The notes beneath the pieces are model-generated. The model made no database searches. It worked only from the letters and a program-made list of their open reading frames with translations, and was not told the DNA's origin. Shown in pieces: positions 1-44,044 of a DNA stretch of 46,725 bases; positions within the stretch are counted from its first letter, which is position 1, and each line of letters opens with the position of its first letter. The stretch covers positions 1 through 46,725 of IMG/VR virus record IMGVR_UViG_3300025383_000040. One strand, given 5' to 3'. The DNA is from a virus. Both the position numbers and the translations under genes were made by a program.

Positions 1-110
1 TCTTGCCTCATATTTACAGAAGCTTTAACGAAGTAGTCGCATAGCTGAGTTAAAGATACATAAATGTCTTCATTGTCTTCAATTGTTTTAAGTGTTCCGT
101 TTGCTATCAT
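1..110 (-). CDS. Small conserved phage protein, partial (runs off left edge)
   Basis: The frame opens with ATG at 110, thirteen bases after the terminase stop, and stays open to base 1, giving 36 residues beginning MIANGTLKTIEDNEDIYVSL. A TAG lies four codons upstream in frame, so this ATG is the only sensible start, though no good Shine-Dalgarno site is visible. The segment YVSLTQLCDYFVKASVNMR looks like a short helical domain. I do not recognise a function. From its place just after the large terminase it probably belongs to the packaging operon, before the portal gene that should follow outside the window. Confidence 0.6.
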   Translation of the reverse strand, partial: MIANGTLKTIEDNEDIYVSLTQLCDYFVKASVNMRQ

Positions 111-122
111 GTCTGTAGTCTA

Positions 123-1976
123 CTATAGAATTCTCATGCTGTCAACACGGAATCTTTCTTCTTCTTCGTCTTCATCAATACCCATAAATTCTCTTAAATC
201 TGGTGGCATTATTTTCTTATCTGGAAGTTTAATTGTTTTATTTTGTGCCAATCTAGCGTCTGATTCTTCTCTTAACTTCTCTATCTCTGTTTGGAATACA
301 GTGCCATATGTATAAAGCTCTAAGGCTTGATTTAAATCTCTAGGGGTTAATGCTACAGCATTATAGATAGCACCGCAAACTGCGTCAGATAAGTCTTTAG
401 AGCCTTTTCTTGGGTGATCTACTTTATCCTTCACAATACGAAGTTGCAATAACTCATCAATAAGTAATTGGATCTTAGGCCCAAGCACACGCTCTTCGGT
501 TAAACATAAAGACATATCTTCATAATGCTTCTTAGCAACTGAAAGTAATTCAGTATTGATACCATGAGTTTTTAATTGCTGCATCATATCGTGAGAGTTC
601 CATCGGTCAAATGTAACCAGCTTTAGATTGAATCCCCGCTGCCTTAAACTAATTATGTAATCTTTTACTTCCGTAAAATCTACTGATTTAGATGCAGTCG
701 GGGTCCAAAAACGTACAGCATCAACAATAATTCTAGGTGCTGCTTCCTTATATTTATCACCGATCTTCATTGTTACCCAGCTATCGGTGTGTGCAAGTGC
801 TACAGCACAATGGTCATGTTTTTGTGCAAGGTCAACGTGAACAAAATAAAGTTTGTCTGGATTTGGCTGGAAGTGGTCATCAAATCTACCATATTCATCA
901 ACATTTAATTTTGGATTGCTAAAAGCTTTTTCAATTACTGCACGATTTTTAAAGAACGCATCAGTAGCATCTGGTGGCATACATGCAAAACGAGATAGAG
1001 CATCCGTTGGGTCTGTATAAAAATCTGTAGTAAAATCTTCAATTTTTCTGGTTGGGTTAACTTCCCAAGTTGGCCTCTTTAATGCGAAGATTCTAGGAAT
1101 CCTGTATGAAATAATATGGTCTTCTTCCCATTCGATTTCAAATTCATTTCCTTGTGTGCCATCTGGAAGGTCAGCATCAATCTTCAATGTTTTATGTCTA
1201 AGCACAACTTCTTTTTCAGCTACCGCTTCATTGTATTTTTGCTGGATATAATCGTTTTTAAAGCGTGGAAATGAAAGCAAGATTACTTTACCAAAGTCTG
1301 GGAAACGAGAGTTAACAGAGGCACGATACATTTTATAAATTGATGATGCGGTTTTTGCTTGATCATGACCAGAGGTTGACTCCAGCTCAAAACCTGAGAT
1401 CTCATCAAGAATAACTACAAGAACGTTATAACCTTCCCAGGCTTCTCTTTCTGAGTGACCTGAGTGAACTGTTACAGACTTATCAAACTCCACCATGTTC
1501 GCCTTTGCAATATACTTGCCTTGGAACCACGGGGACTTTTCAATACGTTGATTAAAACCTTTAAAAAATACTCGGTTAGCCTGAATAGCGTTAATAGCAA
1601 TATTAATAATATCAATAGCATCGCCTGGTGGCTTACCGTAATATGTTGCTGGATCGGATAAACAAAGAAGTAAATGCACCATGTAAGCACAAGCAATAGT
1701 TGATGTATAGTCTTTACCAGATCCTTTGCCAAGTTGCAAGATTACTTCATTACATGTTTGTTTAAATATCTTTTCGCCTTCGGCCTCCCCATAAAGTTTA
1801 TACAGGGTTTCTCTTTTATAGATTTGAGTCGAAGCTTTGATTGACTGATATTGTAATTCAGAAAGTGGAGGTAATCCTAAATAGTTTTTATCAGTTACAA
1901 ATTGCTCTAGTGTAACTGGCTTTTCTGAAAATTCATCTCCACTTAAAGCATCTAAAAATTCGTTAAAGTCACTCAT
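123..1976 (-). CDS. terL: Terminase large subunit (ATPase and nuclease)
   Basis: This 617-residue protein is the DNA-packaging motor and headful or cos nuclease. The Walker A motif GKGSGKD is at residues 83-89 and the Walker B strand VLVVILDE at 185-192, with the catalytic Glu after the Asp. The C-terminal RNase H-like nuclease has three acidic positions: D382 in VHVDLAQ, D457 in VTFDRWN and D531 in KDLSDAV. The length is typical of long-tailed phage terminases. The ATG at 1976 overlaps the end of the small subunit gene by eight bases, so the two are translationally coupled. The protein docks on the portal during packaging. Family identity is secure; the packaging type (cos or pac) cannot be read from the sequence alone. 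Confidence 0.95.
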   Translation of the reverse strand: MSDFNEFLDALSGDEFSEKPVTLEQFVTDKNYLGLPPLSELQYQSIKASTQIYKRETLYKLYGEAEGEKIFKQTCNEVILQLGKGSGKDYTSTIACAYMVHLLLCLSDPATYYGKPPGDAIDIINIAINAIQANRVFFKGFNQRIEKSPWFQGKYIAKANMVEFDKSVTVHSGHSEREAWEGYNVLVVILDEISGFELESTSGHDQAKTASSIYKMYRASVNSRFPDFGKVILLSFPRFKNDYIQQKYNEAVAEKEVVLRHKTLKIDADLPDGTQGNEFEIEWEEDHIISYRIPRIFALKRPTWEVNPTRKIEDFTTDFYTDPTDALSRFACMPPDATDAFFKNRAVIEKAFSNPKLNVDEYGRFDDHFQPNPDKLYFVHVDLAQKHDHCAVALAHTDSWVTMKIGDKYKEAAPRIIVDAVRFWTPTASKSVDFTEVKDYIISLRQRGFNLKLVTFDRWNSHDMMQQLKTHGINTELLSVAKKHYEDMSLCLTEERVLGPKIQLLIDELLQLRIVKDKVDHPRKGSKDLSDAVCGAIYNAVALTPRDLNQALELYTYGTVFQTEIEKLREESDARLAQNKTIKLPDKKIMPPDLREFMGIDEDEEEERFRVDSMRIL

Positions 1977-2496
1977 TGATTACAACTGCTTCAACTTGCC
2001 CAGTAACCTGAGAAAGCCTTCTAGCAACCTCCCACTTACAGTGCTCACAGTTTGCTGTAACTTCTTTCAGTATTCCTACAAGAACTTCTTGCTTTCTTTC
2101 TGATTCTAAAATTTGGGACGCCATATCATCATTTTCAAGAACTCCAGCTTTATTAAGCATATCAATTCTTTTTGCTTCAATGTCAGCAATTAGCTTAAGT
2201 GTCTGCGTCTTTACTGGAAGTGCATCTTGAACATCTGCCTGCTCTACTGTTTTCCAGGCTTCCTTGATAAGCATGTTGTAATGCTCGTCTGCTCCCGCCA
2301 AAGCTTCTTTTGCTCTTTCACGAATAGCAGTGCTATCTTGTACGATAGCTTTCCAGTTCTGAATATGTCCTTCGACCTGAACTCTACTTATAGAGAGTGT
2401 TTTGGCAATCTGAGTAGCGGTATTGCCTTTAAGCAATTCCTCTACGACTTTGTTCATTTGATCAAACTTGCCAGCAACTTCTAGTTCATTATCCAT
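1969..2496 (-). CDS. terS: Terminase small subunit (DNA recognition)
   Basis: A 175-residue protein directly before the large terminase. The N-terminal part (about residues 15-50, with LLKGNTATQIAKTLSISRVQ) is a helix-turn-helix expected to bind the packaging site. The rest is helical, as in the oligomerisation core of small terminases, and a CEHC pair sits near the C terminus. A longer frame reaches 2601, but its extra N terminus lies inside the zinc-ribbon gene at 2489-2668. I chose the ATG at 2496, which overlaps that gene's stop and reads MDNELEVAGKFDQ. The assignment rests on the helix-turn-helix, size and position, since small terminases diverge fast. Confidence 0.8.
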   Translation of the reverse strand: MDNELEVAGKFDQMNKVVEELLKGNTATQIAKTLSISRVQVEGHIQNWKAIVQDSTAIRERAKEALAGADEHYNMLIKEAWKTVEQADVQDALPVKTQTLKLIADIEAKRIDMLNKAGVLENDDMASQILESERKQEVLVGILKEVTANCEHCKWEVARRLSQVTGQVEAVVINE

Positions 2497-2668
2497 TATC
2501 TGTTTTATAAAAACCTGATCCCTTAAATTGAATTCCAGCGGGGCTGTAAACACGAGCCATTTTATAACCACATGAAGGGCATGGAGGAAGAACTTCTTCA
2601 TCAGAAAAAGATCTAGTTACCTCTGACTTTTCATCGCATGTAATGCATGAGTATTCATAAACTGGCAT
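2489..2668 (-). CDS. FmdB-type zinc-ribbon protein, 59 aa, leaderless
   Basis: This short gene reads MPVYEYSCITC at its start, CPSC at residues 30-33, and ends GIQFKGSGFYKTDNG. The paired CxxC motifs form a zinc ribbon, and the closing FKGSGFYKTD is the hallmark of the FmdB putative regulatory family. There is no Shine-Dalgarno site. Instead a consensus promoter ends five bases before the ATG, so the transcript should start at or next to the start codon. It is the first gene of the terminase operon and overlaps terS by eight bases. FmdB proteins have no settled biochemical role; here a transcriptional or packaging-linked role is inferred from position only. Confidence 0.85.
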   Translation of the reverse strand: MPVYEYSCITCDEKSEVTRSFSDEEVLPPCPSCGYKMARVYSPAGIQFKGSGFYKTDNG

Positions 2669-2673
2669 ACTTA

Positions 2674-2703
2674 ATTATAGCCCATTCTCTCTGCTCTTGT
2701 CAA
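2674..2703 (-). promoter_or_regulatory. Consensus sigma-70-type promoter of the terminase operon
   Basis: On the minus strand TTGACA (2703-2698), an 18-nt spacer and TATAAT (2679-2674) match both consensus hexamers perfectly. The -10 overlaps the stop of the upstream gene at 2675, and five bases separate it from the ATG at 2668. The expected transcript is leaderless and covers the zinc-ribbon gene, terS and terL. Confidence 0.8.
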
Positions 2704-3016
2704 CCGCAATTTTAAGTAAAATTAAATAACCAATCAAATCATCAATATCGTTGTCTCCAGCGTAGCCTTGATTATTTTTAACACGGTTCAACTTATCGTC
2801 AATTCGCACTTTTAACTGCTCAATGCCGTCAGACTGTGCAAATATTCTACTAGGCGAAAGTGCTGAGTCTCCATAAGATATATTCTTTTCAATTAATAGT
2901 TGTGCAATTTCATGGCATGCATTCCAAATACGCTGACCTGAAGGTGCTGATGAGGCATGCAAATATAAATCACTACAGATAAAATTATGAACATCTTCAT
3001 ATACTGGCTTTAACAT
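2675..3016 (-). CDS. DUF1599-like (nucleotide modification associated domain) protein
   Basis: A 113-residue protein with the pattern KNISYGDSALSPSRIF followed by a run ending RIDDKLNRVKNN and then DNDIDDLIGYLILLKIA. This closely resembles the DUF1599 family of phage and bacterial genomes, which has been linked by genome context to nucleotide modification. That link is weak and no catalytic reaction is known to me. The ATG overlaps the upstream glycosyltransferase stop as TAATG, so it is cotranscribed with the sugar genes. The terminase promoter lies across its last codons. The family call is from memory of the motif. Confidence 0.6.
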   Translation of the reverse strand: MLKPVYEDVHNFICSDLYLHASSAPSGQRIWNACHEIAQLLIEKNISYGDSALSPSRIFAQSDGIEQLKVRIDDKLNRVKNNQGYAGDNDIDDLIGYLILLKIAVDKSRENGL

Positions 3017-3681
3017 TATCTATTGTCCTTATCGTTAAATGGATGATCATAGATCTCAGCTCCGTTTACCCCGCCCCACTTTTTAATGTAGTGGGCAACA
3101 ACAGCAGACCTTTGATCTTCCCAAATCTTTAATTCTTCGGGATTTTTAATTGTATTTGAGGCAGTATGGGTGATATGGTGTTCTGGAATAGTAAATTGTG
3201 GATAGCCAGACTTTGAAAGTCTTCTATAATAATCACAGTCTAGATAGTAGCCAGACTTCTGTGTTGGCCATTCTTCATCTCCCCATTCACCGATGTGTTC
3301 TACTGCTCTAGTATTAAAAGCACATAGGACATCATACAATGTAAAAACAACCCCCCAATCCTCATTTAAGTTTTCAACAAAGTTTACTAGCTTTGAATCT
3401 GTATCATTATGTACCTCACCATCATTATGCATAAAGGAGTAGTAGTCAAAGTTATTCTTGATAGCATATTCACGCATAAAGTTTTGAGTTTCAGTAAAAG
3501 ACTTTGGTTGGTCTGGTATGAATGTTGCAAAAGGAGTTCCTAGGTAAACAGACTCTGGGATCTCTCCACCAGAGTTGTTAAAGATGATATACTCGTCGTA
3601 TATGTTTGGATTTACGCTATGCACAGCTTTTTCTAGTAGGTTCATATTGGAAACTACTGGAATAAAAATAAACTTTTTCAT
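3016..3681 (-). CDS. Glycosyltransferase, GT-A (family 2-like)
   Basis: A 221-residue protein starting MKKFIFIPVVSNMNLLEKAV, a nucleotide-binding strand and helix as in GT-A glycosyltransferases. FMHNDGEV near residue 85 sits where the DxD metal site of these enzymes is expected, although only one of the usual acids is in place. YLDCDYYRRLSKSGY further on resembles the acceptor-side segment of family 2 enzymes. The C terminus is rich in His and Trp. It overlaps the epimerase gene upstream through TAATG, so the pair probably makes and transfers one sugar. The acceptor may be a virion protein, phage DNA or a host surface glycan; the sequence does not say which. Confidence 0.7.
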   Translation of the reverse strand: MKKFIFIPVVSNMNLLEKAVHSVNPNIYDEYIIFNNSGGEIPESVYLGTPFATFIPDQPKSFTETQNFMREYAIKNNFDYYSFMHNDGEVHNDTDSKLVNFVENLNEDWGVVFTLYDVLCAFNTRAVEHIGEWGDEEWPTQKSGYYLDCDYYRRLSKSGYPQFTIPEHHITHTASNTIKNPEELKIWEDQRSAVVAHYIKKWGGVNGAEIYDHPFNDKDNR

Positions 3682-4685
3682 TAAATAAGTTGGTCCGTCC
3701 AGGTCTTAGGAGTTTTTTCTGTAATAAACTCTAATGGTAAATGGTAGTTAAATGGCTTTACACCCTTAATTTTAATCCATTCCGCCATCTCTGTCAAGCC
3801 ATCTTCTAAGTTAGTCGTTGTCTCATACCCTAAAACTTTTCTAGCTAAGTCTGCAGAACATACTGCATGCTTTACTTCTTGTGGTCTTCCAGGCATGTAA
3901 ATAGCATCGCCATCGTAATTCATTATTTTTGAAACAATCTTAAACAATTCATTGATTGTTACAGACTCTTCGTCAGGACCAATATTAATAACCATACCGT
4001 TTGCTACATCTGTTTCACATGCAATGATTAATGGATTTGATACATCTTTCCAGAATGAGAATGATCTTACCTGCTCTCCATCACCATAAATAATTGGTTT
4101 CTTGCCCTGCAATATTCTGTTAATCATAATAGATGCTACATTTCTAAATGGATCATCATATTTTTGCCTTGATCCAATAATGTTATGAGGAACCAAGATA
4201 ACATACTCCATGCCATGAGTTGATGATATATTTGCTACTAACTGCTCTGCAGCTAATTTAGCAATACCATATGGGTCTTGTGGCTTAGGAATCATATCCT
4301 CTGTAAATGGCAAAGTATCTTGCTTACCATATCTAGCCATGGATGACATATGAACAAACTTCTTTACACCATGCTTGATGGAAGCAGACAATGCTACAGT
4401 TGTTATATGAGAAGTATTTCTTGTAACCAATGCTGGTGAAAATACTGACAATCCTTCATAGGCAGTACAAGCTGAATGTACAACTAAATCAATGCCCTTA
4501 AACATTCCTTCTACAGCATCAAAATCATTTAGATCTGCCTGCCACCAGGTAACGCCTTCTGGAACATTATCCTCGTACCCACCTATTAAATTATCAATGC
4601 CATAGACTTCATGTCCTCGCTTGTACAATTCTTCAGCAAGATGGCTGCCCATAAATCCTGCAACCCCAGTTACCAACACCTTCAT
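3681..4685 (-). CDS. NAD-dependent sugar-nucleotide epimerase/dehydratase (extended SDR)
   Basis: A 334-residue extended short-chain dehydrogenase. The N-terminal GVAGFMGSHL is the GxxGxxG dinucleotide-binding motif, followed by GIDNL, which accepts the NAD ribose. The catalytic YxxxK is in DPYGIAKLAAE (about residue 140), with MSS before it supplying the Ser. The C-terminal half is the variable nucleotide-sugar-binding lobe. The likely substrate is a UDP-, GDP- or dTDP-hexose. The gene is coupled to the glycosyltransferase downstream. Such genes are uncommon in siphoviruses of this size and are best read as a surface or glycan modification module. The exact reaction cannot be assigned. Confidence 0.85.
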   Translation of the reverse strand: MKVLVTGVAGFMGSHLAEELYKRGHEVYGIDNLIGGYEDNVPEGVTWWQADLNDFDAVEGMFKGIDLVVHSACTAYEGLSVFSPALVTRNTSHITTVALSASIKHGVKKFVHMSSMARYGKQDTLPFTEDMIPKPQDPYGIAKLAAEQLVANISSTHGMEYVILVPHNIIGSRQKYDDPFRNVASIMINRILQGKKPIIYGDGEQVRSFSFWKDVSNPLIIACETDVANGMVINIGPDEESVTINELFKIVSKIMNYDGDAIYMPGRPQEVKHAVCSADLARKVLGYETTTNLEDGLTEMAEWIKIKGVKPFNYHLPLEFITEKTPKTWTDQLI

Positions 4686-4858
4686 TACTTAGTCCACTTT
4701 CTAGGTTTTTTAATTAAATCAAAACGTTCTAAAGCTCTTTGTATCGTCATATGAGTACATTTTGCTTCCATTGCCATTTGAAGAACAGTTTTCTTTTCAA
4801 CTACGTATCGCTTGTATACCCAGTCTCTATTCTCCCAAAGCTTTGTGCTCTTAGCCAT
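4685..4858 (-). CDS. Small helix-turn-helix protein, 57 aa
   Basis: This gene fills the space between ruvC and the epimerase gene. The ATG at 4858 follows a very strong ribosome-binding site (GAGGAGGT, four bases upstream), and the stop overlaps the next start as TAATG. The protein begins MAKSTKLWENRDWVYKRYVV. Its central run EKKTVLQMAMEAKCTHMTIQ reads as a helix-turn-helix, followed by a basic tail. It resembles the small HTH proteins often found beside phage recombination genes. DNA binding is likely; the target is unknown. Confidence 0.75.
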   Translation of the reverse strand: MAKSTKLWENRDWVYKRYVVEKKTVLQMAMEAKCTHMTIQRALERFDLIKKPRKWTK

Positions 4859-4867
4859 TATACCTCC

Positions 4868-5425
4868 TCACACAACTTCATTTACCGCATACCATGCAAT
4901 TCCCGCAGCATCCGCCACGTTATCGGACTCAGTTTGGATGCCCAGATTTCTAGCAAAGTCAATTGTCCTTTGCTTTCTACGCTCTCTGATCTTTCCCTTA
5001 ATCCAGTTATCGGATTTGTCGGGGAATTCAGCTCTGATTGCATCTTTTTCCGCCTTGGTATAATTTTTATTACCTAGGTAAGATTGCCAGGTTATCGGAT
5101 GGACTTCAACAACCTCTACATTATCACTAAGTAACTCTCCCATTATAGCACCAAATACGTATGCCATCTTCATTCCCGTCGCCACAGACTTAACAGAAAT
5201 AGCTGCTTCAATAACAACAAAATCAAAGTCTAATGTATCTTTAAATGCTTTTATTTTATTTTTGGCATCAAGGATTCTTTCATATACATCTGAACCTTCA
5301 AATGTAACTTCTCCCCATTTTACAGCTTTCTTTTCATTCATTAGGCAAAAAGCAAAGCTATTTGTACTTGCGTCTATACCTAAAACTTTCTTTGCCTTTG
5401 GCTTTACCAATTTAGCTAGAGACAT
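4868..5425 (-). CDS. ruvC: RuvC-like Holliday junction resolvase
   Basis: A 185-residue RNase H-fold nuclease. The expected acidic residues are present: D18 in VLGIDAST, E73 in VVIEAA, and D168 and D172 in SDNVADAAGIAW near the C terminus. These coordinate two metal ions and cut four-way junctions symmetrically. In phages such enzymes clear branched replication or recombination intermediates before packaging, which fits the RecA-like and Cas4-like genes just upstream. The ATG lies inside the end of the preceding zinc-finger gene (14-base overlap). Length and motifs fit the family well. Confidence 0.85.
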   Translation of the reverse strand: MSLAKLVKPKAKKVLGIDASTNSFAFCLMNEKKAVKWGEVTFEGSDVYERILDAKNKIKAFKDTLDFDFVVIEAAISVKSVATGMKMAYVFGAIMGELLSDNVEVVEVHPITWQSYLGNKNYTKAEKDAIRAEFPDKSDNWIKGKIRERRKQRTIDFARNLGIQTESDNVADAAGIAWYAVNEVV

Positions 5426-5705
5426 TTTTTACCATATCCAAAAGAGATTGACGAGCTTTTTCTTTTTCTTCGCTCTTGCATTTATCGCAAACTTTTGTAG
5501 AGTTATAACGACTTAGCTGTACATTACAGCCATGAGTCTTACAGTATCTTTTCTTACCTGCAAGCCTGGCTTTTTGATCGTAATACTTTTCTTTTAGCTT
5601 TTCATTAGTTGCTATACGACAACACTCATCAGAACAATACTTTTGATTGTGTGTTTTTGGCTCAAACTCTTTTTGCCCCTGGCATTTATCGTAAGCACAT
5701 ATCAC
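5412..5705 (-). CDS. Zinc-finger protein with several Cys clusters
   Basis: A 97-residue basic protein with Cys pairs typical of zinc binding: a CAYDKC-type pair at the N terminus, a CSDECC cluster near residue 25, and later C-x4-C and CDKC pairs. The middle is Lys-rich (EKLKEKYYDQKARLAGKKR), which suits nucleic acid binding. The start is GTG at 5705, overlapping the stop of the upstream nuclease gene as GTGA, so translation is probably coupled. It sits between a Cas4-like nuclease and RuvC, so a role in recombination is a reasonable guess. I do not recognise a named family. Confidence 0.65.
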   Translation of the reverse strand: MICAYDKCQGQKEFEPKTHNQKYCSDECCRIATNEKLKEKYYDQKARLAGKKRYCKTHGCNVQLSRYNSTKVCDKCKSEEKEKARQSLLDMVKNVSS

Positions 5706-6487
5706 TTTTCAAGCACCAATGGTTCTATATAAACTTCGCCGAGATCTTTCTTATCTGCCCAACAAACTTTCTTTACTGGACAACCCTTGCAGGCCCATTG
5801 AGATTTAGTAAATGTACGCTCTGGCAAAGTTCCAGCCTCGTATGCAGCATAAACTTTACGCATCCAGTCCCAAACACCATCAACTAGCTTTTGATTTTTT
5901 TCATCCATATTGATTGGTATAATCAAGAAGCTGTTATCATTTTTGTTTTCATAGAAAAAAAAGCCCTGCTGTGCTCCACGAATTTTCATATAAGTTAGTA
6001 GTTGAACCTTATGATAAGGAAGTCCTTGCATTTCTGCTTGACGAATAGCAAAAATTTCTTCTTTGGCAGATTTAATTTCTCCTACTACTTCTTTTCCATT
6101 CCATTCAATAAATGTGTCTGCAAAACCTCGAATTGGTGGATCATCGTAGGTAACTTCTGTTTCATTAGCTTTAAAGACTGGCGTTTTAGCCATGACTTTC
6201 TGTATACGCTCATGCACATACGTACCGTTATCCATGTTAACGACACCCATAGCATCGGTTTCATTTTCAAACTCAGCACCATTAAAAGCAATGAACCAAT
6301 ATCTAGGACAGTTACCATTACCATAACCAATAGAACTAGGACTAAAAGTCTTTTTCTGAGTAAATTCGTTAGGCCTTTTGCCACTTAATACTGCCTCCTC
6401 GTACATGTTTGCAAAAGCTACTGGGTCAAAACCATTAGGATCAGATATTTTTTGAAACTTTAAGTTTGCAATAATATCTCTACCCAT
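5702..6487 (-). CDS. Cas4/AddB-like PD-(D/E)XK exonuclease with Fe-S cluster
   Basis: A 261-residue nuclease. The PD-(D/E)XK core shows H92 (YVHER), D124 in GFADTFIEW, and E137 and K139 in VVGEIKS. Four cysteines frame the core: C60 in NCPRYW, then C233, C236 and C242 in ACKGCPVKKVC. This one-plus-three spacing is the iron-sulphur cluster signature of Cas4 and AddB nucleases. No cas1, cas2 or CRISPR array is present, so a recombination role with the RecA-like protein is more likely, making single-stranded ends for annealing or strand exchange. The ATG overlaps the preceding small gene by eight bases. Confidence 0.85.
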   Translation of the reverse strand: MGRDIIANLKFQKISDPNGFDPVAFANMYEEAVLSGKRPNEFTQKKTFSPSSIGYGNGNCPRYWFIAFNGAEFENETDAMGVVNMDNGTYVHERIQKVMAKTPVFKANETEVTYDDPPIRGFADTFIEWNGKEVVGEIKSAKEEIFAIRQAEMQGLPYHKVQLLTYMKIRGAQQGFFFYENKNDNSFLIIPINMDEKNQKLVDGVWDWMRKVYAAYEAGTLPERTFTKSQWACKGCPVKKVCWADKKDLGEVYIEPLVLEK

Positions 6488-6608
6488 TAGTCATTCTCCA
6501 TCCCAATTGCTTTCCGCAATACTTGCATATGCTATATGTCCTCATGGTAAAAGGACAACTAGACTCTTCTATTTCGTGTTTATGAAATAGTCTTTTTACT
6601 ATATTCAT
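6480..6608 (-). CDS. 42-aa zinc-ribbon microprotein (DUF1660-like)
   Basis: A short gene with ATG at 6608 overlapping the upstream stop as TAATG and a TAG at 6480-6482 inside the start of the Cas4-like gene. The protein starts MNIVKRLFHKHEIEE and continues with SCPFTM and SICKYCGKQLGW. This resembles the small prophage proteins of the DUF1660 type (short basic N terminus, His, then a CxxC). It is probably a zinc-binding accessory protein. The early codons can fold into a hairpin with a 7-bp stem (6569-6590). Confidence 0.6.
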   Translation of the reverse strand: MNIVKRLFHKHEIEESSCPFTMRTYSICKYCGKQLGWRMTNG

Positions 6609-6934
6609 TATACCCCATATCTAGCAGAATACTTTAGGGCATCTACAAGTCTGTTAATAGCTTCTTCAGCTGTGTAATACACGTTCTTCTTCTTTGCATT
6701 TTCCCCGCCTTTTTCAAAGGTGGTGTAGTAACGAGACATAACTGCAAATTTGGCTGATAAAGCCTGCATCTTTACAATAAGATCTGGGGCCTTAGATGAA
6801 GGAACATCTGGTTTGGCAATAAGCTTAATAATTAAGTCCAGTGCATAGTCAAGATCTGGGTCGTTCATGTAAGCTTTCATATCGTTGAACTCTGTAAGTT
6901 CACTAATTAATTCAATAACTGGCTTATCTGTCAT
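6608..6934 (-). CDS. Conserved phage protein of unknown function, 108 aa
   Basis: A helical 108-residue protein with the segment SKAPDLIVKMQALSAKFAVM followed by a basic stretch GGENAKKKNVYYTAEEAINR. The pattern (a Lys- and Asn-rich linker and a final helix ending LVDALKYSAR) recurs in replication regions of many siphoviruses, to my memory without an assigned role. Start and stop overlap the neighbours (four bases with the upstream gene, TAATG with the downstream one), so it is translated within the recombination operon. No catalytic motif is seen. Confidence 0.6.
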   Translation of the reverse strand: MTDKPVIELISELTEFNDMKAYMNDPDLDYALDLIIKLIAKPDVPSSKAPDLIVKMQALSAKFAVMSRYYTTFEKGGENAKKKNVYYTAEEAINRLVDALKYSARYGV

Positions 6935-7113
6935 TCCATAATCCTAACACAGAACTGGCAGGGATCTCCACCCTCTTCCCATTCCTTTTCTTCTTCTTCG
7001 GTTAATGAAGGTACGCCATCATGGGTTGCACAGAACATGTCTGTAATCCAACCTCGTTCAACGCCATTATTAAACCAAATCAAAAACTCAGCTTGATTTT
7101 CTTCAGTTATCAT
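6931..7113 (-). CDS. Small acidic Cys/His protein, 60 aa
   Basis: A 60-residue protein with the layout WITDMFCATHDGVP, a strongly acidic middle (LTEEEEKEWEEGGD) and DPCQFCVR at the end. The CxxH and CxxC pairs could bind one zinc ion. Similar short proteins occur in many actinophage and other siphovirus genomes, with no known function as far as I know. The ATG at 7113 overlaps the upstream gene by eleven bases. Its role is unassigned. Confidence 0.6.
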   Translation of the reverse strand: MITEENQAEFLIWFNNGVERGWITDMFCATHDGVPSLTEEEEKEWEEGGDPCQFCVRIME

Positions 7114-7414
7114 TTTGTGCCTCCCAGCACTCTACCATTTGCTCAAACAATGCCCATTCAATTACTGCAAGTCTGGTCTTTTGACCTTCTCCGCCCAATA
7201 TTAATTTAAGTACAGGATACTTGTCCCTGCTAACCTTAAAAGTATCCGTACAAATTTTCGCCCAAATTTCTTTTGAAATGGAGATGGATTTACTATACTC
7301 CTTATAATCAACCACGAAATCATGCCATTGGCTATCACCCTTTTGATATACGCCTCTACCAGAATTCTTTTGAGCTTTTGCACCATCTCTTTTAATTTCT
7401 CCACGCTCTGACAT
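7103..7414 (-). CDS. Putative PD-(D/E)XK-type nuclease or resolvase-like protein
   Basis: A 103-residue protein with RDGAKAQKNSGRGVYQKGD, then FVVDYKEYSKSIS and VLKLILGGE and RLAVIEW. The FVVDYKE strand matches the D-(x)-(D/E)-x-K half of a PD-(D/E)XK nuclease fold, and the GRGVYQKGD run before it resembles the N-terminal segment of archaeal or phage Holliday-junction-resolvase-like proteins. It lies in the recombination cluster between recA and the Cas4-like gene. A structural role cannot be excluded, because the upstream acidic residue of the active site is not obvious. The ATG overlaps the previous stop (TAATG). Confidence 0.5.
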   Translation of the reverse strand: MSERGEIKRDGAKAQKNSGRGVYQKGDSQWHDFVVDYKEYSKSISISKEIWAKICTDTFKVSRDKYPVLKLILGGEGQKTRLAVIEWALFEQMVECWEAQNDN

Positions 7415-7602
7415 TAAATTGAAACCGCCGAGTCATGACCATTACTGCATGTCCACTTTAGTTTATTATGTGTTCTATCAATATAACCCTCATAAACAAT
7501 CTCTTTGCATTCTGCATTTTGACATGAGAAAGAACCATTGGCTGGCTCCATGTATACATCAACTTGATTTTCTTTCTTCAAAAACTTTTCAAGATTTGTC
7601 AT
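7414..7602 (-). CDS. Small zinc-binding protein, 62 aa
   Basis: The frame could be extended to 7722, but that part lies wholly inside recA. The ATG at 7602 has a good ribosome-binding site (AGGAGATTT) and overlaps the recA stop by 14 bases, so I start there. The protein reads MTNLEKFLKKENQVDVYMEP, then CQNAEC at about residue 28 and CSNGHD near the end. These Cys and His pairs suggest a single zinc site. Function unknown; it is coexpressed with recA. Confidence 0.65.
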   Translation of the reverse strand: MTNLEKFLKKENQVDVYMEPANGSFSCQNAECKEIVYEGYIDRTHNKLKWTCSNGHDSAVSI

Positions 7603-8587
7603 AAATCTCCTGCTTAATCTTTTCAGCAACTTCTGGATTTTCACGCAAATACTCGACAGCCTTAGCACGACCTTGGAATCGCTCTTCATTAACCGTGTAC
7701 CAAGCACCGCCCTTTTGAACAATACCCATCATCTCTGCTGTATCTAGGATTTCTCCAACGGCATCAACTCCGACTTTATCCCCTTGGAAGTAAAAATCAT
7801 ATTGACCGCTGAGTCCCATTGGTCCAGTTTTATTGTAGTCAATGATCCAATTAACGGGCCTGCCAACTTTTTGTTCAATGATCTTGTCACCAACTTGGAT
7901 TCCAGACTTAATAGCATTTGCATCAGCTTCGGATGCCCAAAGCTTGATGACGGTGCTGGAGAAAAACTTAACTGCCATGCCCCCTGTTGGGATATGCGAC
8001 GCATGCATAGAACCAAATTGGTTTCTCTGCTGAGAAATAAGAACCAATAGCGTATTTTTGTTTGCGTAGTTAAGCATTTTGACTGCATGTGTCATATCCT
8101 TTGCTTCTGCACCAATCTGCTTGGTGTCTTCTAACTTCTTAAGATCAGAACTATCTTTCTCAAAATAAATGGCGGGGAGTAGTGCTGAGATAGAATCTAC
8201 AACAATAATATCTACTCCCGCCTCCATAAGTTGTTGTGCAACATCCACCATATCATTAATAGATTTAGCAGGAGAATAGATAAGAGAATCTGAATCTACT
8301 CCAAGACGGGCTGCCCAGACTGGATCATAAGATGCTTCTGCATCAATCCAAGCACATGTTTTTCCTTCTTTTTGAGCTTGTCCAATCATCTGCAAACAGA
8401 ATGATGATTTACCAGCGGATTTGTTTCCCCAAATAAGAACTTGACGACCAAAGCCTAGGCCACCTTTTAGGCCCATAGTCAAACCAATACTAGGTGTCTT
8501 TTGCTTTTCTACGCTTACTGTTGTCGCTAGTTGCAGTCTTGCTCTTGTTTTTGGGTCTAGCTTTGCTAGAATTTCTTCCGTTATCAT
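7589..8587 (-). CDS. recA: RecA/UvsX-like recombinase
   Basis: A 332-residue strand-exchange ATPase. Walker A GNKSAGKS is at residues 54-61, Walker B DIIVVDS at 126-132, and the loop LISQQRNQFG with GGMAVKFFSSTVIKLW corresponds to the L1/L2 DNA-binding region. It forms filaments on single-stranded DNA and pairs it with duplex, driving recombination-dependent replication together with the Cas4-like nuclease and RuvC. It is shorter than bacterial RecA (about 350) and has a reduced C-terminal domain, as in phage versions. The ATG at 8587 lies inside the end of the upstream gene, a 98-base overlap. Confidence 0.9.
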   Translation of the reverse strand: MITEEILAKLDPKTRARLQLATTVSVEKQKTPSIGLTMGLKGGLGFGRQVLIWGNKSAGKSSFCLQMIGQAQKEGKTCAWIDAEASYDPVWAARLGVDSDSLIYSPAKSINDMVDVAQQLMEAGVDIIVVDSISALLPAIYFEKDSSDLKKLEDTKQIGAEAKDMTHAVKMLNYANKNTLLVLISQQRNQFGSMHASHIPTGGMAVKFFSSTVIKLWASEADANAIKSGIQVGDKIIEQKVGRPVNWIIDYNKTGPMGLSGQYDFYFQGDKVGVDAVGEILDTAEMMGIVQKGGAWYTVNEERFQGRAKAVEYLRENPEVAEKIKQEIYDKS

Positions 8588-8744
8588 TCATGCTCTTTTC
8601 TAATTCAATCGCTACTTCTTTAATCTGCTCATTACGACTTGCTGCCAAAATGTCTATAATGGTATAGATTGCTTTTTCATCTTCCGCTCTTACGACCAAA
8701 AGATATTCGTTTTCCGTACCTTTAAGTATGTAGGACTCAGCCAT
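8490..8744 (-). CDS. 84-aa protein with basic tail, overlapping recA
   Basis: The first half (MAESYILKGTENEYLLVVRA and on to a predicted helix) looks like a small alpha/beta domain. The second half, from about residue 51, is a disordered Lys/Arg/Ser-rich tail that overlaps the first 98 bases of recA in another frame. A basic tail beside a recombinase gene suggests DNA binding, but this is inference. There is no Shine-Dalgarno site. A TATAAT box ends eight bases before the ATG, so the mRNA may be leaderless. Part of the tail may exist only because recA constrains the shared DNA. Confidence 0.6.
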   Translation of the reverse strand: MAESYILKGTENEYLLVVRAEDEKAIYTIIDILAASRNEQIKEVAIELEKSMNDNGRNSSKARPKNKSKTATSDNSKRRKAKDT

Positions 8745-8752
8745 ATACTTAT

Positions 8753-8758
8753 ATTATA
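8753..8758 (-). promoter_or_regulatory. -10 box (TATAAT) of a probable leaderless transcript
   Basis: TATAAT reads on the minus strand eight bases before the ATG at 8744, in the 16-base gap after the upstream gene. No clear -35 hexamer is visible at 16-18 bases. The position implies a start of transcription at or just before the start codon of the 84-aa gene, upstream of recA. Confidence 0.45.
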
Positions 8759-43607: not shown

Positions 43608-44006
43608 TTAGTTATAATACTCCTGCAGCTCTCTAGGAGTAGCAGGTCTAAAACCTTGCTGAGTATCAAAAATAGCCTGGGCATCAGATTCTGCCATTGC
43701 GACAAAAGGATGCTCTTGGGTAAAAGTATGACCTCTTACCTGATATGAATGGTTGTCTCTCTCCATCTTAACCAAAATTGAATTCTCTGTTTTCAAAATC
43801 TTCTTCTCTCTCTTCTGCTTTTCAGCAGCTGGTACATCAATTTCTTCCTTTTCGGCACCAGAAAATGAACTGTACATCTGGTACGTAATTCCTTCTTCTT
43901 CTAGAACTGCTGCAATTTCAGTCTTTGTTTTAGCTTCTGAAATATCAACGCCAAATGAATCTGCAACTTTGCGTAGTTCTGTAATTTTTAGATCTGTAAA
44001 TGACAT
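43608..44006 (-). CDS. SAP/Rho-N-like capsid-associated protein
   Basis: A 132-residue protein beginning MSFTDLKITELRKVADSFGV, followed by DISEAKTKTEIAAVLEEEG: this is the helix-turn-helix of SAP or Rho N-terminal domains, which bind nucleic acid. A charged linker leads to a small C-terminal beta part with VKMERDNHSYQVRGHTFTQE and a helix ending LQEYYN. The ATG at 44006 has AGAGGAAA before it; a TTG or ATG six codons earlier is less likely. Proteins of this type often follow actinophage capsid genes and may bind packaged DNA or decorate the head. Confidence 0.65.
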   Translation of the reverse strand: MSFTDLKITELRKVADSFGVDISEAKTKTEIAAVLEEEGITYQMYSSFSGAEKEEIDVPAAEKQKREKKILKTENSILVKMERDNHSYQVRGHTFTQEHPFVAMAESDAQAIFDTQQGFRPATPRELQEYYN

Positions 44007-44029
44007 GTATTTTCCTCTCGTCATTAGCT

Positions 44030-44038
44030 ATTATAGCA
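44030..44038 (-). promoter_or_regulatory. Extended -10 promoter (TGCTATAAT) after the capsid terminator
   Basis: TGCTATAAT on the minus strand, directly after the capsid gene terminator and 23 bases before the ATG at 44006. It restarts transcription for the neck genes. No good -35 is visible. Confidence 0.6.
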
Positions 44039-44044
44039 GAAAAT

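Follow-up and report, generated by a model that had tools for sequence, protein, structure and literature searches.

What does a small gene do at the head of a phage packaging operon, and how is it translated when a perfect promoter ends five bases before its start codon? The question arises from a 46,725-nucleotide stretch of viral DNA (positions 1 to 46,725 of IMG/VR record IMGVR_UViG_3300025383_000040; hereafter, the window), in which a first-pass annotation had described a consensus promoter followed by a leaderless gene for an FmdB-type zinc ribbon. We hold with good confidence that this is the packaging-operon head of a phage related to the Stanwilliamsviridae, with a leaderless fmdB expressed from an embedded promoter, a coupled terS, and then terL (Table 1). 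According to this model, a primary-sigma consensus promoter within the 3'-terminal part of the upstream gene would start the message at or within one base of the ATG, so that fmdB, as the first gene, would be translated from a leaderless mRNA; terS would come next by stop-start coupling through the ATGGATAA overlap, followed by terL, and the leaderless element would be the slot rather than FmdB itself. Leaderless genes and phage FmdB genes are known kinds, while their combination and the behavior of the slot are new; among the papers searched, those on FmdB or leaderless starts in connection with phage terminases contained no description of this arrangement.

TABLE 1 Features of the packaging-operon head (window coordinates)
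Feature	Position	Strand	Remarks
Upstream gene, 113 aa	2675-3016	-	PHROG 1485, function not known; promoter in its 3' end
-35 hexamer TTGACA	2703-2698	-	Within codons of the upstream gene
-10 hexamer TATAAT	2679-2674	-	Holds the TAA stop of the upstream gene
Predicted transcript start	2668	-	A of the fmdB ATG, +/- one base; from the 5-base gap
fmdB, 59 aa	2489-2668	-	Zinc ribbon of the FmdB family; lacks the long tail of the cellular form
fmdB/terS stop-start overlap ATGGATAA, 8 bases	2489-2496	-	
terS, 175 aa	1969-2496	-	Small terminase subunit with HTH; PHROG 9507, full length
terL, 617 aa	123-1976	-	Large terminase subunit; 8-base overlap with terS

The promoter was as the first-pass annotation had described it. 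Both hexamers match the consensus (12/12) with a spacer of 18 bases (promoter scan, minus strand, 2703-2674), which places the site in the sigma-70/sigma-A class, defined here as TTGACA and TATAAT separated by 16 to 18 bases. Five bases (2673-2669) separate the TATAAT from the ATG that begins at 2668, and the minus strand reads ...GCGGTTGACAAGAGCAGAGAGAATGGGCTATAATTAAGTATGCCAGTTTATGAA... across the promoter, which occupies the last codons of the upstream gene. This is the single 12/12 site within positions 1 to 8000 and the sole perfect promoter in the window at spacers of 15 to 19 bases; the reversed control pattern gave no perfect matches in the window. When all 1,825 ATGs of the window were scored at the fixed geometry, the ATG of fmdB was the only one above 8/12. 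The center of the -10 hexamer is 8.5 bp from the predicted transcript start; -10 centers in Mycobacterium tuberculosis lie 7 to 12 bp upstream of the start (PMC3898074).

We mapped viral contigs related to the window through terS and through FmdB, which provided 72 distinct upstream sequences, or 71 after removal of L139, an unrelated match from a fecal sample. Exact hexamers were found in 55 of these 71 relatives (spacer of 18 bases in 54 and of 17 in 1), always with a gap of 5 bases to the ATG (55/55), although the relatives share ancestry and their counts are thus not independent. Scores at the fixed geometry were bimodal, with 55 relatives at 12/12, 16 at 8/12 or below, and none at 9 to 11. 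Bimodality is the fair statistic because the spacer-18 set (n = 54) was picked by its hexamers, which biases the count of invariant positions within it (13 of 60, of which 12 are the hexamers). The spacers form 12 clusters with a mean identity of 51%, and the promoter is retained in contigs that have a different upstream gene (L006, L022, L031, L061, and L116). Among the 49 relatives in which the -35 hexamer is coding, its Asp codon is GAC in every case, compared to 26% GAC in the window.

The -10 hexamer lies 5 bases before the start codon in all 55 promoter-bearing relatives, and no SD sequence lies within the predicted transcript, making a leaderless start of fmdB likely, as had been proposed. 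Leaderless genes of Actinobacteria and Deinococcus-Thermus, which carry TANNNT motifs, likewise have a -10 element a few bases before the ATG and no leader (PMC3898074, PMC12340547), and an actinobacterial-type setting is also common to these genes and the locus described here. Unlike the known examples, this locus has a -35 element that is also a perfect consensus, a promoter that lies within the upstream gene, and a slot that is conserved while its gene changes.

It is unlikely, in our estimation, that translation is ordinary despite a real promoter, with fmdB translated mainly from read-through messages of the upstream operon by means of a purine run. An SD-like run just upstream of the -10 hexamer reaches a duplex energy of -4 kcal/mol or lower in 43 of the 55 promoter-bearing relatives, versus 12% of random 13-mers, and given this frequency, read-through messages may be translated in the ordinary way with this run as their SD. 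However, the run ends at the -10 hexamer, 10 to 11 bases before the ATG, and would therefore be missing from messages that start at this promoter; in the window, the signal is weak at -2.4 kcal/mol; the 5-base gap never varies; and fmdB copies without the promoter have their SD-like signal at 4 to 9 bases rather than at 10 to 11. A strict alternation of SD and promoter was also considered but did not hold up, since most promoter-bearing relatives have SD-like purines upstream of the -10 hexamer as well. Leaderless initiation from the embedded promoter remains the reading that we prefer.

Natural gene swaps serve as controls on what is leaderless in this arrangement. In contigs L045, L049, L058, L095, and L248, fmdB is separated from the upstream gene by another gene of about 205 to 215 codons. 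These insertion variants keep the promoter where the upstream gene ends, and the distance from the TATAAT to the start of the inserted gene is 5 bases (L058 and L248) or 6 bases (L045, L049, and L095). A sister clade without FmdB before terS has terS itself 6 to 8 bases after TATACT or TATAAT, preceded by a TTGATT-like -35 element; the spacer holds a conserved palindrome resembling AGTCGACT. Given that either the inserted gene or terS can occupy the position, these comparisons indicate that the leaderless start goes with the operon's first slot and not with FmdB. The proposal of a leaderless FmdB gene thus holds in that this start is likely leaderless, but the property is that of the slot. We postulate, only as a doubtful extension, that the slot has been selected to be leaderless whatever gene it holds, with the SD pathway bypassed and the level of terminase set by FmdB translation through coupling. 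If this is true, packaging proteins would be made from messages that bypass SD recognition, for example by 70S or damaged ribosomes late in infection. Under the preferred model, the locus would be a clear example, legible from sequence alone, of late phage genes that depend on leaderless initiation and on overlaps between genes whose ribosome-binding signals are weak or lacking.

The sister-clade palindrome, TAGTCGACTA, with variants TAGTCAACTA and AGTTGACTAG (L195, L205, L220, L236, and others), lies in the terS promoter between its -35 and -10 elements, some 30 bases upstream of the gene. It is absent from the window and looks like an operator.

Other perfect promoters of these phages vary in their distance to the next gene. 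In viral contigs, the exact arrangement TTGACA-N18-TATAAT-N5-ATG occurs at no fewer than 80 places, and at least 44 of the matches listed open frames of 40 codons or more. FmdB contributes at least 12 of those 44 frames and is one of the main users of the geometry among the matches listed. Another recurring group, which we take from its sequence to be queE, and a third, presumably uvsW, share the geometry; other phage genes therefore use it too. The queE-like loci (L335, L336, L365, L368, L384, L387, L395, L403, L407, and L410) suggest that leaderless consensus promoters may be recurrent in phages. Elsewhere in the window, an 84-aa ORF (8490-8758, minus strand) has a TATAAT 8 bases before its ATG and no evident SD, and is another gene whose leader may be very short or lacking. 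The gene at 43608-44040 (minus strand) has the TATAAT-N5-ATG arrangement (-10 at 44035) but was rejected; an in-frame ATG with a good SD is found 18 bases further on, so this gene probably has a short leader.

The fmdB frame overlaps terS, as had been claimed, by 8 bases, and the same overlap is common to 36 relatives. The first-pass annotation had also warned that skipping the small gene would lead to a wrong, longer terS. A longer terS ORF (210 aa, from 2601) does exist in the window; in 30 of the 36 relatives with the overlap, no usable start would lengthen terS by as many as 30 residues, and for this reason we consider the 175-aa form correct and the terS start corrected to 2496. No SD of -4 kcal/mol or lower was found for terS in any of the 36 overlap-type relatives (median, +1.0 kcal/mol). 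With no SD in the overlap arrangement, terS is probably translated by coupling to FmdB (re-initiation). The terS/terL overlap of 8 bases occurs in 53 relatives, and an SD for terL is frequent in relatives and absent in the window.

The fmdB product matches TIGR02605 over its full length (positions 1 to 52 of 52) at 59.5 bits (cutoff, 31.3) and PF09723 at 43.3 bits (cutoff, 34.4), and the four predicted zinc ligands of the CxxC...CxxC pattern are present (C8, C11, C30, and C33), so its description as a 59-residue FmdB-type zinc ribbon stands. Core motifs are near-invariant in the alignment, the C-terminal FKGxGFYxT most of all. Eleven of the 72 homologues depart from CxxC...CxxC, with three Cys and a His or, in one of them (L031/L034 type), four Cys and a His. 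All 11 carry a His able to replace the lost Cys as a ligand, a pattern suggestive of selection on zinc binding and not on the presence of four redox cysteines. The AlphaFold model of the 59-aa protein has a mean pLDDT of 70 and an undefined tail; a Foldseek search of the PDB returned generic zinc ribbons only (best E value, 0.14), and a PDB sequence search with the protein returned nothing significant.

Among the matches listed, most cellular FmdB relatives are 79 to 137 aa in total, and a few are 67 aa. The phage protein stops near the point at which most cellular proteins continue into a long hydrophilic tail, and can be regarded as a minimal form of the FmdB/Ruc family in phages. At least 6 of 25 cellular FmdB genes among the matches listed have GAGTGCTAAC upstream, which we recognize as the CIRCE half-site of HrcA.

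Ruc (Rv0991c) of M. tuberculosis is the best-studied FmdB relative, a zinc-binding holdase chaperone that is under HrcA control, binds DnaK, and requires its tail for holdase activity, with tails of about 7 to 61 residues reported (PMC7448276). The phage protein shares with the FmdB family and Ruc the full model match, CxxC...CxxC, and the conserved FKGSGFYKTD motif. Its tail of about 7 to 10 residues after the core is at the very short end of the range given in the Ruc paper (PMC7448276) and is not a disordered hydrophilic tail of the Ruc type. We slightly favor a Ruc- or Hsp70-related role, as a tentative choice, and a folding-related or terminase-accessory function seems likelier than a regulatory one. 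That FmdB regulates transcription of the terminase operon or of its own promoter strikes us as quite improbable: the gene is placed at the operon head and PHROG 1076 is annotated as "FmdB-like transcriptional regulator," but "regulator" is an annotation name only, the characterized relative Ruc is a holdase chaperone (PMC7448276), and FmdB does not stay with the promoter arrangement in either the sister clade or the insertion variants. The "putative regulator family" of the earlier reading is a label from the family name, and none of the tests supported a regulator.

Conservation of the 59-residue frame had been named in the first-pass annotation as a point to check. The frame is conserved, with a median dN/dS of 0.21 (pairs with dS below 1.5), every pair below 1, and codon changes concentrated at third positions, which indicates that it is under purifying selection. 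A perfect promoter arising by chance in an AT-rich genome (38% G+C) beside a spurious small ORF has next to no probability even though the reversed control pattern gives some perfect matches in long contigs, since promoter and frame are both conserved, and by these comparisons the promoter is not a chance match.

How closely FmdB is bound to the terminase genes varies among relatives. FmdB was matched in 22 of the 26 records searched, one of the 22 (G025) being a weak fragment of 9 positions; the four Streptomyces-type genomes among the 26 had no match, and none of the Streptomyces or Rhodococcus phage records matched phage FmdB at an E value of 0.01. Some contigs carry fmdB apart from terS, and in the sister clade it lies downstream of terL, roughly 3 to 10 kb downstream of terS. 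The expectation of FmdB beside terS in related phages thus holds where FmdB keeps its conserved place as the leading gene of the terminase operon and fails where FmdB is absent or separated. FmdB is not strictly tied to terS, and the claim that it is "fixed" to terminase expression is contradicted by the Streptomyces relatives without FmdB, the contigs with separated genes, and the sister clade. The uncultured freshwater phages in which this small gene is conserved form a large group, and it is their usual first-slot gene.

The window, a fragment, encodes a TerS about 50% and a TerL 60 to 66% identical to those of Stanwilliamsviridae (Streptomyces phages Coruscant and Navo), and the packaging operon has the same order: cas4-like exonuclease, ruvC, HTH gene, terS, and terL. 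In contrast to the window, no FmdB was found in Coruscant and Navo; in the Streptomyces phages, terS overlaps or directly adjoins a DUF7246 gene, and the purine-rich sequence before terS is SD-like and comes with no promoter of this type. The nearest cellular FmdB proteins are nearly all actinobacterial (48 to 61% identical), a hint that the host belongs to the Actinobacteria, and the phage probably infects freshwater members of this group. Between the HTH gene and the 113-aa gene, the window carries a glycosyltransferase-like gene and a nucleotide-sugar epimerase (3016-4685, minus strand); relatives hold different genes in this interval, which therefore seems to be an insertion hotspot.

The best match in the cellular search, L248 (CAINGU010000031.1; 109,918 bases), is filed as an uncultured cyanobacterium. 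It holds the terS, terL, FmdB, RuvC, and Cas4-like genes of this phage group and is therefore probably a phage contig that was put in the wrong bin. The 79-aa FmdB proteins of L252, from a MAG labeled Bifidobacterium breve, and L257 (Streptomycetaceae) are nearly identical to each other and to that of L261 (Actinomycetota), and at least one label looks wrong.
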